From assembly GCA_001775755.1 (NCBI GenBank), contig MEYF01000018.1, positions 892 through 54,742 on the forward strand: a stretch of 53,851 bases of DNA, given 5' to 3'. Made by a program: the position numbers and the translations under genes. Source of the stretch: Candidatus Aminicenantes bacterium RBG_19FT_COMBO_65_30. GTDB lineage: Bacteria > Acidobacteriota > Aminicenantia > Aminicenantales > Saccharicenantaceae. The notes below the pieces were generated by a model. That model saw only the letters and a list, made by a program, of their open reading frames with translations. It had not been told where the DNA came from and did no database searches. Shown here one piece after another: positions 47,286 to 53,851 of this stretch; the first letter of the stretch is position 1, and every line of letters begins with the position of its first letter.

Positions 47286-49307
47286 TCAGGAGAGAGTGTC
47301 CTTTCTCCTGAAGTGGAACAAATAGCTCTCGATCCCCTTGATCTCCTTGAAGGTCAGGTCCTTGAACTTCATGCCTGAATAATAGAAGCCCGGGTCGCCC
47401 CCGCCCTTCTCCGAATAGATGATGTCGCTTTTGATCAGTATGGCCTTGTCCTCGACGACGAGGATCGTTTCGAGCGTCTGGAGCGGGGGGAGGGCGGTGT
47501 CGGAGACGACGCGCGCCCCTTCGAGGCTGATGTTGACGGTTTTGGCGACCTTGAAGCCGCCGTTCTCCCGGAAGAGGAAGGGCGTCGAGACGTTGTAGCG
47601 CTCGTATTTCCTCCTCTCCCGGACGAAGCGGCCGGCCGCGGCCGCGCCCTCGGCTTTCTTGCTCTCCCCGACTTCCTCCCAGACGAAGTTGCAGACGCGG
47701 TTCTTGTCGATGGGGACGTCGGTGGGGCCGCGGGGAGCGAGGTCCGGCCGGCATTTGCCCTTGGCCTCAGCCAGGGCGAGGTCCGCCTCGCCGGCCAGGC
47801 GCTTGAGGTCGGGCTTGGTCAGGGGGCCCGGCTGTTCGCCGTCGTTCTTGGGGAAGATCGTCACGCCGAACGACATGGTCAGGTTGGAGCGCGGCTGGAA
47901 CTCCTGGAGCTCGAAATAGTGGTCTTCGACGTTCTTCCGGATACGTTCGGTGAGCAGGAAGGACTCCTCGACGCTCTTGACGCCCATCAGGAAGAAGAGG
48001 AACTCCTCGCCGCCGTAGCGGCAGAGCAGGTCCTCCTCGCGGATGGAGAGCTTGAGGACGTGAGCGAGCTCGCGGAGGAGCCTGTTCCCGGCCTCGTGGC
48101 CGTTGCGGTCGTTGTAGGCCTTGAACCAGTCGACGTCGCCCATGACCAAGGCCATGGCGCCCTCCTCGCGGCGGCGCTTGCTCAGGGCGTTGACCTTCTG
48201 GAGGACTTTTTCGAAGAACGGCTCGGGCCTGAGGAGCCCGGTCAGGGGATCGAACTGGATGAGGTTGAGCTTGGTCATGGCGATGGCCATGTGGTCGGAA
48301 AGGCCGCGGAGGATCTCCAGGTCCTCCCGGGTGAATCCCTCGGGGTTCAATTTCCCGGCGGCCATTTTGTTGTAGACCTCGAGGACGCCGATGACGTTGG
48401 GTCCGTGCATGATGGGCACGCCGAGCAGGCTCTTCGGCGGGGTTTTGAGGAAGGCCGTGTAGCGCTTGCTCAGGCGCCGGTCGAAGGTCAGGTTGGCGAC
48501 GCTGACGTCGTGGCCGAACCGGGCGACCGAGGCGGCGAAGTCCTGGGCCTCGAGCGGGGCGATGTACTTGGAGAAATCCGAATGGGCCAGGAAGGCGTTG
48601 TCCCAGACGAGGGGCTTCAGGTAGCGGCCGATGACCTCGTTCTCGTCGATGATGTAGACGGTGGCGCTTTCGGCCTGGACGATGTCCCGGATCTCGGGGA
48701 CGATGTCGAGAAGACTGCTGACGTCGTCGGCGCCGTAGATCTTCCGCAGGGTCGTCTCGACCCGCTGGCGCTCCTTCTGGGATCCGACGTATTGCGCCTC
48801 GATGGCGATCCGCTTTTCGACCTCGCGTATGAAGCCGGTGTTGAGCAGGCCCTTGATCTCGTGGATCTCGGCCAAGACGTCCTTGACTTTGGCGTCCTGG
48901 AGGCCAAGCGACAGGCGGAGGTCGGCCGCCTCCGTATTCAGCCGGGCGTGTTCGACGACGCGGCCGAGGGCGCGAAGGAAAGCGAGCTCCCGCGGCGCCG
49001 CGGGCGAGGTGCGGCAGAAGTCGACGTCGACGCCCGGCGGCCATTCGTCGGCGGCACGCGAAACCTGATCCTCGTCGTCGCCGGCGAGGAGGACTCCGGT
49101 CGGAGGGTGGACCATGGCCTTGAGCGCCGTCGATCCGGCGAAGGCCATGTCGATGACCGCGACGGCGACGTTCCCCTCGGCGAACACGGCCAGGGCCGCT
49201 TCGGGGTCGCTCTCGGCCCGGACCGGGCCGTACTTCTGGGCCAGGCGGGCGAGGCGGTCGGCTTCCGTGGACAACGGATGGATAACGAGGATGAGCTTTT
49301 GGATCAT
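47286..49307 (-). CDS. GAF-GGDEF diguanylate cyclase with C-terminal PilZ domain
   Basis: REEDLLCRYGGEEF (I-site RxxD plus GGEEF), PilZ-like RRKYERYNVSTPF ... NISLEGARV. Confidence 0.92.
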   Translation of the reverse strand: MIQKLILVIHPLSTEADRLARLAQKYGPVRAESDPEAALAVFAEGNVAVAVIDMAFAGSTALKAMVHPPTGVLLAGDDEDQVSRAADEWPPGVDVDFCRTSPAAPRELAFLRALGRVVEHARLNTEAADLRLSLGLQDAKVKDVLAEIHEIKGLLNTGFIREVEKRIAIEAQYVGSQKERQRVETTLRKIYGADDVSSLLDIVPEIRDIVQAESATVYIIDENEVIGRYLKPLVWDNAFLAHSDFSKYIAPLEAQDFAASVARFGHDVSVANLTFDRRLSKRYTAFLKTPPKSLLGVPIMHGPNVIGVLEVYNKMAAGKLNPEGFTREDLEILRGLSDHMAIAMTKLNLIQFDPLTGLLRPEPFFEKVLQKVNALSKRRREEGAMALVMGDVDWFKAYNDRNGHEAGNRLLRELAHVLKLSIREEDLLCRYGGEEFLFFLMGVKSVEESFLLTERIRKNVEDHYFELQEFQPRSNLTMSFGVTIFPKNDGEQPGPLTKPDLKRLAGEADLALAEAKGKCRPDLAPRGPTDVPIDKNRVCNFVWEEVGESKKAEGAAAAGRFVRERRKYERYNVSTPFLFRENGGFKVAKTVNISLEGARVVSDTALPPLQTLETILVVEDKAILIKSDIIYSEKGGGDPGFYYSGMKFKDLTFKEIKGIESYLFHFRRKDTLS

Positions 49308-49473
49308 AGCCCTCGTTGCCTCTTTCCTGACGAAAGAGCGAAAAACTCTTCCTTTTCCTCTTTAATATGTATACCAGATTTTCGGCCCTCGTCAATCGTT
49401 TTTTTTGACTTTTGATTAGCCTTCCGGCGATGTGGTATATTTCCCGGGCGAGAAACGTTCGAGGAGACAAAAA

Positions 49474-51144
49474 ATGGCAAAAACGGCGAACGAACCGGTC
49501 GCGAATATCCGGGCCCCGAGGGGCTCCCGCCTGACAACCAAAGGCTGGTCCCAGGAGGGGGCACTGCGGATGCTCATGAACAACCTGGATCCGCAGGTGG
49601 CCGAAAAGCCCGGCGAGCTCATCGTCTATGGCGGGACCGGCAAGGCCGCCCGGAGCTGGGAAGCCTACCGGGCCATCGTGGCCAGCCTGAAAAAGCTCGA
49701 GAACGATGAAACGCTCATCGTCCAATCGGGGAAGCCGGTGGCCGTCTTCAGGACTCACGCCGAGGCGCCCCGGGTCCTCATCGCCAACGCCCTGGTCGTC
49801 CCCCAATGGGCCAACTGGGACGAATTCCGGCGCCTCGAAGCGCTGGGCCTGACCATGTACGGCCAGATGACGGCCGGCAGCTGGATCTACATCGGGACCC
49901 AGGGCATTCTCCAGGGGACCTACGAAACCCTGGCCGCCGCGGCCCGAAAGCATTTCGGAGGCTCGCTCAAGGGGACACTGACCTTGACCGCGGGGCTCGG
50001 CGGTATGGGCGGGGCCCAGCCCCTGGCCGTGACCATGAACGACGGTGTCGCCATCGTCGCCGAGGTCGACTCCCGCCGTATTGAGAGGCGTCTCGCCACG
50101 AAATACGTCGACATCATGACCGACAGCTTGGACGAGGCCCTGCGCCTGGCCGGTGAGGCCATGAAGAAGGGGACGCCTCTCTCCATCGCCCTCCTCGCGA
50201 ACGCCGCCGACGTCCTGCCTGAGTTCGTCCGCCGGGGCATCACGCCGGATGTCCTGACCGACCAGACCTCGGCCCACGACGAGCTCAACGGCTACGTGCC
50301 GAACGGGCTTTCCTACGAGGACGCGCTGGCTCTCCGGACGAAGGACCCGGCCGACTACATCCGCCGATCTTACGCCGCGATGGCCGCCCACGTCGAAGCC
50401 ATGCTCGAACTGCGGAAAAGGGGAGCCCGGGTTTTCGACTACGGCAACAACATCCGCGGCCAGGCCCGGAAAGCGGGGGTGGCCAAGGCCTTCGACATCC
50501 CCGGATTCGTCCTGGAGTACATCCGGCCTCTCTTCTGCCTCGGCAAGGGGCCTTTCCGCTGGGCGGCGCTCTCCGGAAAGCCGCAGGACATCGCCGCCAC
50601 CGACGCGGCCGTGCTCAAGGAGTTCCCCGAGGACGAGGCCCTGGCCCGCTGGATCCGCAAGGCCCGGAGCCGGGTCAAGTTCCAAGGCCTGCCGGCCCGC
50701 ATTTGCTGGCTCGGTTACGGCGAGCGGGCCCGCTTCGGCGCCGTCATCAACCACCTGGTGAAAAAAGGAAAGACGGCCGCGCCCATCGTCATCGGCCGCG
50801 ACCACCTCGACACCGGCTCGGTCGCCTCGCCGAACCGCGAGACCGAGGGCATGCGGGACGGCTCGGACGCCATCGCCGACTGGCCCGTCCTCAACGCCCT
50901 CCTCAACGCCGTCAGCGGCGCCTCGTGGGTTTCCGTCCACCACGGCGGCGGCGTGGGCATCGGCCTGTCGATCCACGCCGGGATGGTCATCGTCGCCGAT
51001 GGAACGGCGATGATGGGGCGCCGGCTGGAGCGCGTCCTGACGGTCGATCCGGGCCTGGGCGTCGCCCGCCACGCCGACGCCGGATACCCGGACGCCATCG
51101 CCTGCGCCAAGAAGAACGGCCTCAAGATCCCGATGATGAAATAA
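49474..51144 (+). CDS. hutU: urocanate hydratase
   Basis: [63 protein letters not shown]. Confidence 0.95.
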
Positions 51145-51207
51145 GCACCGTCAAAGGGAAGCGACGCGCCGCGGCGCGTTCCCCCGGCGGGTGTCAACTC
51201 GCCTTTC

Positions 51208-51230
51208 CGAAAGCCCTCGGCTTTCGTTTC
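51208..51230 (+). terminator. terminator-like hairpin after hutU
   Basis: CGAAAGCC-ctc-GGCTTTCG followed by TTTC; preceded by palindrome ACGCGCCGCGGCGCGT at 51164-51179. Confidence 0.55.
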
Positions 51231-51279
51231 CATCCCGATTGTTTTGAGCGGGTTGGACCAGGCTCCGGAGGCTCGGCCG

Positions 51280-51296
51280 CTGGCACGCCGCTTGCT
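51280..51296 (+). promoter_or_regulatory. sigma-54 (RpoN) -24/-12 promoter
   Basis: cTGGCACGCCGCTTGCT: TGGCAC-N5-TTGCT, about 10 nt before the expected TSS and 27 nt before the peptide start codon. Confidence 0.85.
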
Positions 51297-51322
51297 TTGA
51301 AGAGGGCGAAAGGAGACACCCG

Positions 51323-51541
51323 ATGAAAAAGCTGGCGATCTTAGCCCTGGCCGGGCTCGTCCTCGTTTCCGCGGCCCTTTTTTTCCCCATGGCCGCCGCC
51401 GGACACGATGTCAATGAATGCGACAGGGATCACCGGGATTGCCGGGAGAACGTCCTCAACATGGACGCCCCCTGGTACAAGGTCATGATCTTTCTGACGG
51501 TCTGCGACATCGGGCTCGGCAAGTGCATCCTCTTCATGTGA
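51323..51541 (+). CDS. secreted small Cys-rich peptide precursor
   Basis: SD AAAGGAGA; signal peptide MKKLAILALAGLVLVSAALFFPMAAA; mature region with two CX6C motifs. Confidence 0.8.
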   Translation: MKKLAILALAGLVLVSAALFFPMAAAGHDVNECDRDHRDCRENVLNMDAPWYKVMIFLTVCDIGLGKCILFM

Positions 51542-51551
51542 TCGAGGCGGA

Positions 51552-51577
51552 GAGGGCCCTCGCTTTCGAGGGCCCTC
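51552..51577 (+). terminator. strong intercistronic hairpin after peptide gene (attenuator or processing site)
   Basis: GAGGGCCCTCG-cttt-CGAGGGCCCTC perfect 11-bp stem; no U tract. Confidence 0.75.
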
Positions 51578-51606
51578 CATGCCGGCCGGCGAAAAGCACG
51601 GTCGGC

Positions 51607-52602
51607 ATGGGCATGACAAGACGCGCGGCCGAGGCCATGGTCGTCATCCTGTCGCTGACCGTCGCCGCGGCGTCCGGAGGCGCGAAGGAGCAAGCTGTTG
51701 AACGCTGGAAGGCGGTCGAGGTCGCGGCCGCGGCGAACGAAGCGGACGAAGCCTTGCTCGGACGGCCCCTCTCCCTGGCCCTCGACGCCGAGTGTCTCTA
51801 CGTGGCCGACGCCCAGGATTGCGCCGTCAAGGTTTTTTCGAAGGACGGGAGATTTCTGAGAGCGTTCGGCCGGAAAGGCCGCGGGCCCGGCGAGCTCACT
51901 TTCCCTTCCGGGGTCTCCGTCGTCGGCGGGAGGGTCTATGTCGCCGACAAGCTCAACTACCGGATCCAGATATTTGACGGAGAGGGGAAGCCGCGCGGGG
52001 GCTATCCCGTGCCCTTCGCGCCGGACAAGGTCTTCGCCATGGGCGCCGAAACGCTTCTGATCACGGGAAATCCGACCGGCCGTCGGGCGGGAGAAATGCT
52101 CCTCCACATCTACGGCGACGCCGGCCGCCTCCGCTGGGAAGGGCTCGAAGCGCGATCCTCGTCAGACCCGATGTACGACACGTTCCGGAACATGATCCTG
52201 GTGTGCCCAGGGGAGGAGAAAGACTTCTACGTTGTTTTCCGGAGCGGCGACCGGACGATCCTCCGCTTCGCCGGGACGGGCGTCCTCCGGGGGAAAACCC
52301 CCGTCGACGAGCGCCACGCCTTCCGGCCTTTGGACATGCCCTTCAAGGGACCGAAGAAGCGCCTCCTCGGCTTTTGCTGGGCAGCGGCCCGGGACCGGGG
52401 ACTCTTCTATCTTTCGGCGCCCGAGCCCGTGGACGGCAAGGACCTCGGGCCGGGCCGGCGGTTGTCCGTTATCGATAAAGACGGCCGCCTTCAGGCTGTC
52501 GTCGAGCTGCCGTGCCCCGTCCATCGGTTCGTCGTCGAGGAGGATCGTGTTTTTGCCATAGATGACGAGGGCGGACTGAGGATCTTCGAGATCGTCCGAT
52601 GA
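51607..52602 (+). CDS. secreted 6-bladed beta-propeller protein
   Basis: NHL-like repeats LYVADAQDCAVKVFSKDGRFLRAFGRKGRGPGELTFPSGVSV, VYVADKLNYRIQIFDGEG; signal-like N-terminus. Confidence 0.85.
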   Translation: MGMTRRAAEAMVVILSLTVAAASGGAKEQAVERWKAVEVAAAANEADEALLGRPLSLALDAECLYVADAQDCAVKVFSKDGRFLRAFGRKGRGPGELTFPSGVSVVGGRVYVADKLNYRIQIFDGEGKPRGGYPVPFAPDKVFAMGAETLLITGNPTGRRAGEMLLHIYGDAGRLRWEGLEARSSSDPMYDTFRNMILVCPGEEKDFYVVFRSGDRTILRFAGTGVLRGKTPVDERHAFRPLDMPFKGPKKRLLGFCWAAARDRGLFYLSAPEPVDGKDLGPGRRLSVIDKDGRLQAVVELPCPVHRFVVEEDRVFAIDDEGGLRIFEIVR

Positions 52603-53069
52603 AACGCTGGTTCTTGATCGTCGCCGTCGCCGCGTCCCTCGCGGGAGGCTTGGGGGGGACGGCCGGGGAACCCGTCGACGTCCGCATCTGCGCCAGCCTC
52701 GACGAAGCGGCCCCGTCCGGCGCCGGCCCCGTGCTTCTCGTCTTCTTCTCGACGGATTGCCCCGTCTGCTATGACGACCTCTTCGAATCGAGATACCTGA
52801 TCGACAAGGGACGCTGGCCGGTCTCCGTGGTCGGCGTCTGTTCCGGGCTCCGGGAGGACCTCAGGATCTTCCTCGAGAAACACGCCTGGGCGCTCCCCGT
52901 CGTCCTGGACAGGCGGAAGATCCTTTTCAGGAGATTCAAGGTGGACGCCGTCCCGTTCAAGGCCCTGCTCTTGGGGACGGAGGCGGTCTATCGGGACGAT
53001 CCCTACCGCGATCCCGAGGGACGCCGGGAGGAATTGAAACAATGTTTGACACGGCTCTTTTCCCGATAA
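52599..53069 (+). CDS. secreted thioredoxin-like protein
   Basis: Signal peptide; LLVFFSTDCPVCYDDL CXXC motif; ATGA overlap with preceding gene. Confidence 0.82.
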   Translation: MKRWFLIVAVAASLAGGLGGTAGEPVDVRICASLDEAAPSGAGPVLLVFFSTDCPVCYDDLFESRYLIDKGRWPVSVVGVCSGLREDLRIFLEKHAWALPVVLDRRKILFRRFKVDAVPFKALLLGTEAVYRDDPYRDPEGRREELKQCLTRLFSR

Positions 53070-53776
53070 CGTGGCGCGTCACCCGGCGGAGGCTTCTCGC
53101 CTCGCCGCTGGCGATAGCCGCCGGCCTGGCCTTCCCCGCGTTCGTCGTCTGGATCGGCTTCAACGACTCGTACGAAACGGCGGCGAAGTTCTTCTTTTTT
53201 CTCCTGCCTCACGTCTTTCTCATCGCCGCCCAGGACACGGTTCGGACCGATATCGAGAGCGGGGCCCTCGAGAACGTTCTCTTCCTCGGCGGCAGGTTCC
53301 GAGGCTTCCTCAGGGCGAAGAGCTACGTCCTGGCCGCGGCCGTCGGGGTTTACGCCTGCGGCTTGTTCGGATTATTCACGGCTTGGGGACTGGCCGCCGG
53401 CGCGTTCAGGCCCTATTTCGTCATAAGGTTCGCGCTGGGGCTCCTGGCCGGGTCCTACTATATCGCCTTGGCGGGGACCCTGAGCTACTTTCTCAGGGCC
53501 GGGTCGAATGTCCTGGCTCTTCTGCTCGCCCAGTCGGCCGCCCTGATCGCGCTGCTCTTCTCGGCCACTTCGCGGACGGGCTTTCTCGATTACGCGGCCT
53601 CGGGGCATTTTCCTGGGCTTGGCCCGAAGCTCCTCTTCGGCGGCCTGGTCGCCATACTGCCCAACGTGGTCGTGTCCGGACGGCTTCTCGTCTTTGCCGC
53701 CGAGGTCCTGACCGGGCTCGCGCTATCGCTTTTCGTCCAGAATCGGCTGGCCCGGGCGCTCGAGCTGGGGAAATAG
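53042..53776 (+). CDS. ABC-2-type permease-like membrane protein
   Basis: About six hydrophobic segments; overlaps upstream gene and precedes an ABC ATPase. Confidence 0.75.
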   Translation: MFDTALFPITWRVTRRRLLASPLAIAAGLAFPAFVVWIGFNDSYETAAKFFFFLLPHVFLIAAQDTVRTDIESGALENVLFLGGRFRGFLRAKSYVLAAAVGVYACGLFGLFTAWGLAAGAFRPYFVIRFALGLLAGSYYIALAGTLSYFLRAGSNVLALLLAQSAALIALLFSATSRTGFLDYAASGHFPGLGPKLLFGGLVAILPNVVVSGRLLVFAAEVLTGLALSLFVQNRLARALELGK

Positions 53777-53785
53777 GGGGCGAAC

Positions 53786-53851
53786 ATGATCGAAGCGCAT
53801 CGGCTATCCAAACGATTCGGCCCGGTCGAGGCCCTCCGCGACGTTAGCTTC
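53786..53851 (+). CDS. ABC transporter ATP-binding protein (5' partial, runs off window)
   Basis: MIEAHRLSKRFGPVEALRDVSF, typical ABC ATPase N-terminus. Confidence 0.85.
   Translation, partial: MIEAHRLSKRFGPVEALRDVSF

Follow-up and report, generated by a model that had tools for sequence, protein, structure and literature searches.

A genuine sigma-54 (RpoN) promoter in front of the gene for an exported small peptide was confirmed at the sequence level in the window (the whole stretch of 53,851 nucleotides analysed here, from Candidatus Aminicenantes bacterium RBG_19FT_COMBO_65_30), and the reading of 51280-51296 as the promoter of an operon under a paired upstream enhancer is in our judgement highly probable. 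The promoter is of the textbook sigma-54 type, and the peptide family and operon are undescribed in the sources searched; a literature search on sigma-54 in Aminicenantes, or on sigma-54 together with secreted precursor peptides, found no paper. A single promoter match thereby becomes a regulon open to testing, in bacteria known chiefly through metagenomes; its promoter and enhancer pair are defined, and its peptide, likewise defined, is a clear candidate for laboratory study.

The sequence TGGCACGCCGCTTGCT at 51281-51296 had no mismatch to TGGCAC-N5-TTGCW, with GG at -24 and GC at -12 correctly spaced, and the longer CTGGCACGCCGCTTGCT deviated from YTGGCACGrNNNTTGCW solely at the r position (C at 51288), exactly as the first-pass annotation had described it in sequence and in coordinates. 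When the window was scanned for TGGCAC-N5-TTGCW with one mismatch tolerated, this was the single match; however, 0.68 such matches per window are expected by chance, so that the match by itself is suggestive only. Genome-wide, four exact sites were found versus none for a reversed-pattern control. The predicted transcription start (~51307) precedes the ATG (51323) by 16 nt, and the Shine-Dalgarno AAAGGAG falls just inside the predicted transcript, in agreement with the earlier estimate of about 16 nt with room for a ribosome-binding site. No sigma-70-like promoter was found at 51100-51700.

What decided the matter was conservation. TGGCAY-N5-TTGCW was exact in 31 of 35 peptide-gene loci (window included; several genera and families, statistically non-independent as relatives) and present with at most one mismatch in 34, always at -41 to -44 from the ATG, while elsewhere in the same loci two exact sites occurred per 1.24 million strand-bases (a background of 1.6e-6 per position). 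The sole locus missing the -24/-12 element (L099) is from a different family. Because the promoter is conserved at a fixed spacing across orthologous loci, it is taken as genuine; the first-pass annotation had named a lack of such conservation before orthologous peptide genes as one ground for refutation. The alternative, a random match in a genome rich in G+C, could draw on the 0.68 matches expected per window, but against the fixed spacing and the low background it is exceedingly improbable, and we rejected it at the sequence level. Among the same-genus loci, intergenic DNA could hardly be aligned outside the -24/-12 element, the ribosome-binding block and the two dyads (see below). Dispersed peptide paralogs (L104, L108, L091, L095, L101 and L094) had a one-mismatch -24/-12 at -39 to -43, and tandem second copies had none, as expected if tandem copies use the promoter of the first.

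Table 1. Features of the control region and the peptide operon, in window coordinates.
Feature	Position	Strand	Basis or remark
Far upstream dyad GTCAAAGGGAAGCGAC, putative activator (bEBP) site, one of a pair	51150..51165	.	13/13 same-genus loci
Near upstream dyad GTCAACTCGCCTTTCC, putative bEBP site	51193..51208	.	Aligned in 13/13 same-genus loci
Sigma-54 -24/-12 promoter CTGGCACGCCGCTTGCT	51280..51296	+	Exact to TGGCAC-N5-TTGCW; conserved in 34/35 orthologous loci at fixed spacing
Predicted transcription start	51307	+	12 nt after the -12 C (51295); from promoter geometry
Shine-Dalgarno AAAGGAG	51309..51315	+	Inside the conserved GNGAAAGGAG block of the alignment
Exported 72-aa peptide, signal-type N-terminus, CX6C-X20-CX6C mature region	51323..51541	+	Orthologs, Cys spacing, prediction
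RNA hairpin GAGGGCCCTCG-CTTT-CGAGGGCCCTC between peptide and propeller genes	51552..51577	+	z-score -3.41
6-bladed beta-propeller / NHL (DUF5128)	51607..52602	+	PF17170 E 1.6e-9, PF01436 E 3.7e-7
AhpC/TSA-redoxin fold with CPVC motif, thiol-disulfide oxidoreductase-like	52599..53069	+	PF00578 E 4.1e-6; cluster 2
Membrane protein	53042..53776	+	No Pfam family; clusters 11 and 5 context
ABC ATPase, start of gene	53786..53851	+	Truncated where window and contig end

Further upstream, all 13 same-genus loci had in common two 16-bp dyads (GTCAAC-N4-GTTGAC / GTC-N10-GAC), lying some 130 and 173 nt before the ATG; their arrangement is the layout of an enhancer for a sigma-54 activator (bEBP), and we regard them as putative binding sites. 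The far dyad was found at -171 to -174 in each of the 13, at 43-44 bp from the near one, and its window copy had four mismatches to GTCAAC-N4-GTTGAC. The near dyad, with three mismatches in the window, was a near-perfect palindrome in several loci (GTCGACATCGGTTGAC in L081, GTCAACCGCGGTTTAC in L075) and perfect in L087, which belongs to a different genus. Summed best dyad mismatches were 29 in the genus versus a shuffled mean of 60 (minimum 53), and 69 versus 105 (minimum 97) in 23 other loci (including L045, the second copy of one genus member, and one near-identical pair); the dyad consensus was read partly from the tested loci, which makes the result in the other genera the fairer one. When dyad pairs were sought, 28 of 35 loci gave a shuffle P <=0.05, where the spacing was 43-44 bp (13 loci), 31-33 bp (13 loci) or 36 bp (2 loci). 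The 31-33 and 43-44 bp spacings (26/35 loci) correspond to roughly three or four helical turns; by established bEBP biology, two activator dimers would bind there on one face of the DNA. The pair was absent from L079, L082, L085, L086 and L106 among the 35 loci searched, and no match of GTCAAC-N4-GTTGAC was made to a described bEBP site. The dyad offers a handle for tracing the activator. Two dispersed paralogs of one family (L104 and L108) have a different dyad (GATCACAAAGTGTGAC and GATCACATTCTGTGAC) upstream of their sigma-54 sites.

In the named genome collection, Candidatus Aminicenantes bacterium RBG_13_64_14 was the sole relative found. The genome in which the window lies (2.45 Mb in 136 contigs, 86% complete) encodes RpoN (PF04552 E 2.5e-59 on C89), whose absence had been named at first pass as fatal to the promoter, and eight strong bEBP AAA+ domains (PF00158). 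Because of these eight domains and the conserved paired dyad upstream, the regulated, activator-dependent expression proposed earlier gains support, as far as sequence can speak to it. On the other hand, the search for a bEBP gene near the locus, which the first-pass annotation had recommended, returned none on the window's contig and none in the stretches fetched around relatives' operons, and no convincing dyad, hence no link, was found beside the bEBP genes. A phyletic profile of bEBP C-termini over 60 relatives indicated that, among the matches listed, most types are order-wide, and it singled out no activator. One candidate, a C99-type bEBP located ~17-26 kb from the peptide in one genus, was set aside, as no convincing dyad stood beside its gene; an exact dyad elsewhere in the genome (L145) lay beyond the 3' end of a gene that has no sigma-54 site and was taken as chance. 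Two separate observations concern the bEBPs themselves: three genomes of another genus (L146, L147 and L151) each have the exact sigma-54 site TGGCAYAAAAATTGCT at a few kb from their C99-type bEBP, and in the bEBP at L158:3352-5703 (G000:C54) the sigma-54 contact loop reads GAFTDA, not GAFTGA.

To what does this promoter belong within the genome? Other exact or near-exact sigma-54 sites precede a type IV prepilin and four FecR/DUF6600 proteins, and further ones a beta-barrel-like protein, a carboxypeptidase-regulatory-domain protein and a family-5 solute-binding protein. Thus an exported product under sigma-54 is the usual case in this genome, contrary to the first-pass view that regulated expression of a secreted peptide was unusual; nor did the genome scan proposed with it find similar small peptides behind the other sites, since other exported proteins stand there and the genome has one clear copy of the peptide family. 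No sigma-54 site was found before any of the genome's other 12 propeller genes in the stretches fetched. That sigma-54 controls the bacterial exterior, with synthesis and transport of envelope components as the theme, is the idea of Francke et al. 2011 (PMC3162934), whose main text does not contain the word Acidobacteri-. The sigma-54 targets of this genome resemble that scheme in being exported or envelope proteins, whereas the paper is not about small Cys-hairpin peptides. The peptide promoter is thus part of such an exterior-oriented regulon, and appears to have an activator site of its own. Several other targets, DUF6600 proteins among them, have a TGTCC-N8-GGACA dyad upstream (summed mismatches over 13 promoters 27 versus a shuffled mean of 46, minimum 39), apparently a second sigma-54 sub-regulon. 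At the four FecR/DUF6600 loci (L003, L047, L051 and L061) this dyad lies ~48-75 bp before the -24/-12 element. The prepilin gene with an exact sigma-54 site is located just downstream of a PilR-like bEBP gene (L001 and L007; G000:C16).

The operon reads peptide, RNA hairpin, 6-bladed propeller, CxxC redoxin, inferred ABC permease and ATPase, and across loci one or two peptide copies came first, then the propeller and the redoxin, in most cases followed by the ABC permease and ATPase genes; genes were called by cross-locus conservation, codon usage being misled by shadow reading frames in the G+C-rich loci. In distant relatives a strong stem folded at the corresponding place between peptide and propeller genes, followed in some by a terminator-like T run that the window copy does not have, and a search of Rfam with the window gave no match. 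The hairpin may stop transcripts partially or give them a stable 3' end, raising the peptide over the downstream products. The propeller (cluster 1), second in nearly every locus, reached 37.8 bits with PF17170, above the gathering cut-off of 22.9, and is probably exported. The membrane protein is presumed to be an ABC permease from its hydrophobicity and the adjoining ATPase, of which a full-length ortholog (L045:8461-9153) matched PF00005 (ABC_tran) with E 7.3e-19. Some genomes of another genus are missing the ABC genes and have a TonB-receptor-like gene instead (L091; receptor called by eye).

The peptide was found in 36 of the 60 genomes searched (its own included), and the Cys spacing of 6-20-6 held in all 30 members compared. 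AlphaFold2 without an alignment modelled two helices in the mature part (30-45 and 51-70) at a pLDDT of ~90, four of the five models being much poorer, so that the mature peptide is predicted as a two-helix hairpin. Its net charge was -3 to 0 (acidic to neutral) in the members checked, and dispersed and tandem paralogs have diverged. Neither Pfam nor NCBIfam gave a family above its curated cut-off for the window peptide, and the same databases searched with the family gave weak matches in one or two members and nothing more; the match of one member to the NprX pheromone model (E 7e-4) probably reflects merely its signal sequence. Among 396 genomes of the phylum, where only prefiltered candidates were scored and diverged members may be missed, the peptide was found only within the same order. 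A PDB sequence search with the peptide returned signal-peptide matches to antibody chains only, and the nearest PDB shapes by Foldseek included plant helical-hairpin peptides at E-values that were not significant.

From these elements, of which the promoter with its conservation, the dyad pair, the operon and the Cys pattern are seen in the sequence itself, a mechanism can be proposed. In response to a signal, a bEBP bound to the two dyads, ~100-160 bp upstream of the start and on one helix face, would open the RpoN polymerase; the first product of the operon would be an exported small peptide folding into a disulfide-stapled two-helix hairpin, the stem-loop after its gene would render it more abundant than the propeller, CxxC redoxin and ABC transporter, and the redoxin and transporter would help its folding, handling or immunity. 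In its most likely role the peptide would be made on demand and be either secreted or kept in the envelope. From the promoter itself one would expect the peptide to be produced solely in response to a specific signal, and the operon gives a hint of how it is handled.

As for what such a peptide does, three proposals were weighed. The first places the peptide in the cell envelope, with a structural or regulatory task there (as a partner of the propeller, say) and no release. It is possible and would account for the propeller following the peptide in nearly every locus; the exported and envelope nature of the genome's sigma-54 targets also fits it, through the exterior idea (PMC3162934), but a simple envelope part would not need an ABC transporter and a redoxin. 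Those two genes speak for the second proposal, in which the peptide would be a bacteriocin-like antagonist, exported and disulfide-stapled, with the transporter for export or self-immunity. The signal-type N-terminus, the four Cys, the diverged tandem and dispersed paralogs and the helical hairpin shape with its weak geometric likeness to plant hairpin peptides point the same way, yet the acidic to neutral mature part, the non-significant Foldseek E-values, the single clear copy in its own genome and a propeller left unexplained make this antagonist doubtful.

Lower in likelihood stands a signal sensed via the propeller or via a histidine kinase feeding the bEBP, an improbable reading that suits the activator-dependent promoter, the small exported product and the conserved enhancer pair and is weakened by a bEBP found nowhere near the operon and by a pheromone-model match that is probably just signal sequence. 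Envelope part, antagonist and signal thus form a rough order of likelihood with little separating them. In a bolder composite, put forward tentatively as rather less than an even prospect, disulfide-stapled helical-hairpin peptides of a family not described before would be produced on demand through their own bEBP and sigma-54, would be matured or handled by the propeller, CxxC redoxin and ABC transporter encoded on the same transcript, and would act as signal or antagonist among uncultured Aminicenantes.

Among known systems, sigma-54 promoters under bEBP enhancers share with the control region the TGGCAC-N5-TTGCW element, same-face paired dyads, rpoN and bEBPs in the genome. Plant alpha-hairpinins, which have a helix-loop-helix with two disulfides, share four Cys with the peptide, whose two helices are predicted and whose disulfides are putative, and the Jug r 2 leader and pumpkin C2 peptide resemble the peptide model geometrically, though not significantly. 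However, the alpha-hairpinin motif is CX3C-X4-20-CX3C (PMC11591084) whereas all 30 members compared have CX6C-X20-CX6C, and the present peptide is bacterial and acidic, with no sequence homology to the plant ones. For operons of the NVEALA type no paper was found, and in NCBIfam the peptide matched no family of this kind. We take these operons of Bacteroidota to have, as here, a small exported peptide gene adjoining that of a 6-bladed propeller, and presumably they offer a lead only.

Two neighbours of the operon are recorded for completeness. Directly upstream lies a urocanase gene (49432-51144), at whose place the same-genus loci also have a conserved reading frame. Nearby on the minus strand (47286-49307) is the gene for a GAF-GGDEF-PilZ protein, an architecture that combines cyclic-di-GMP synthesis and binding.
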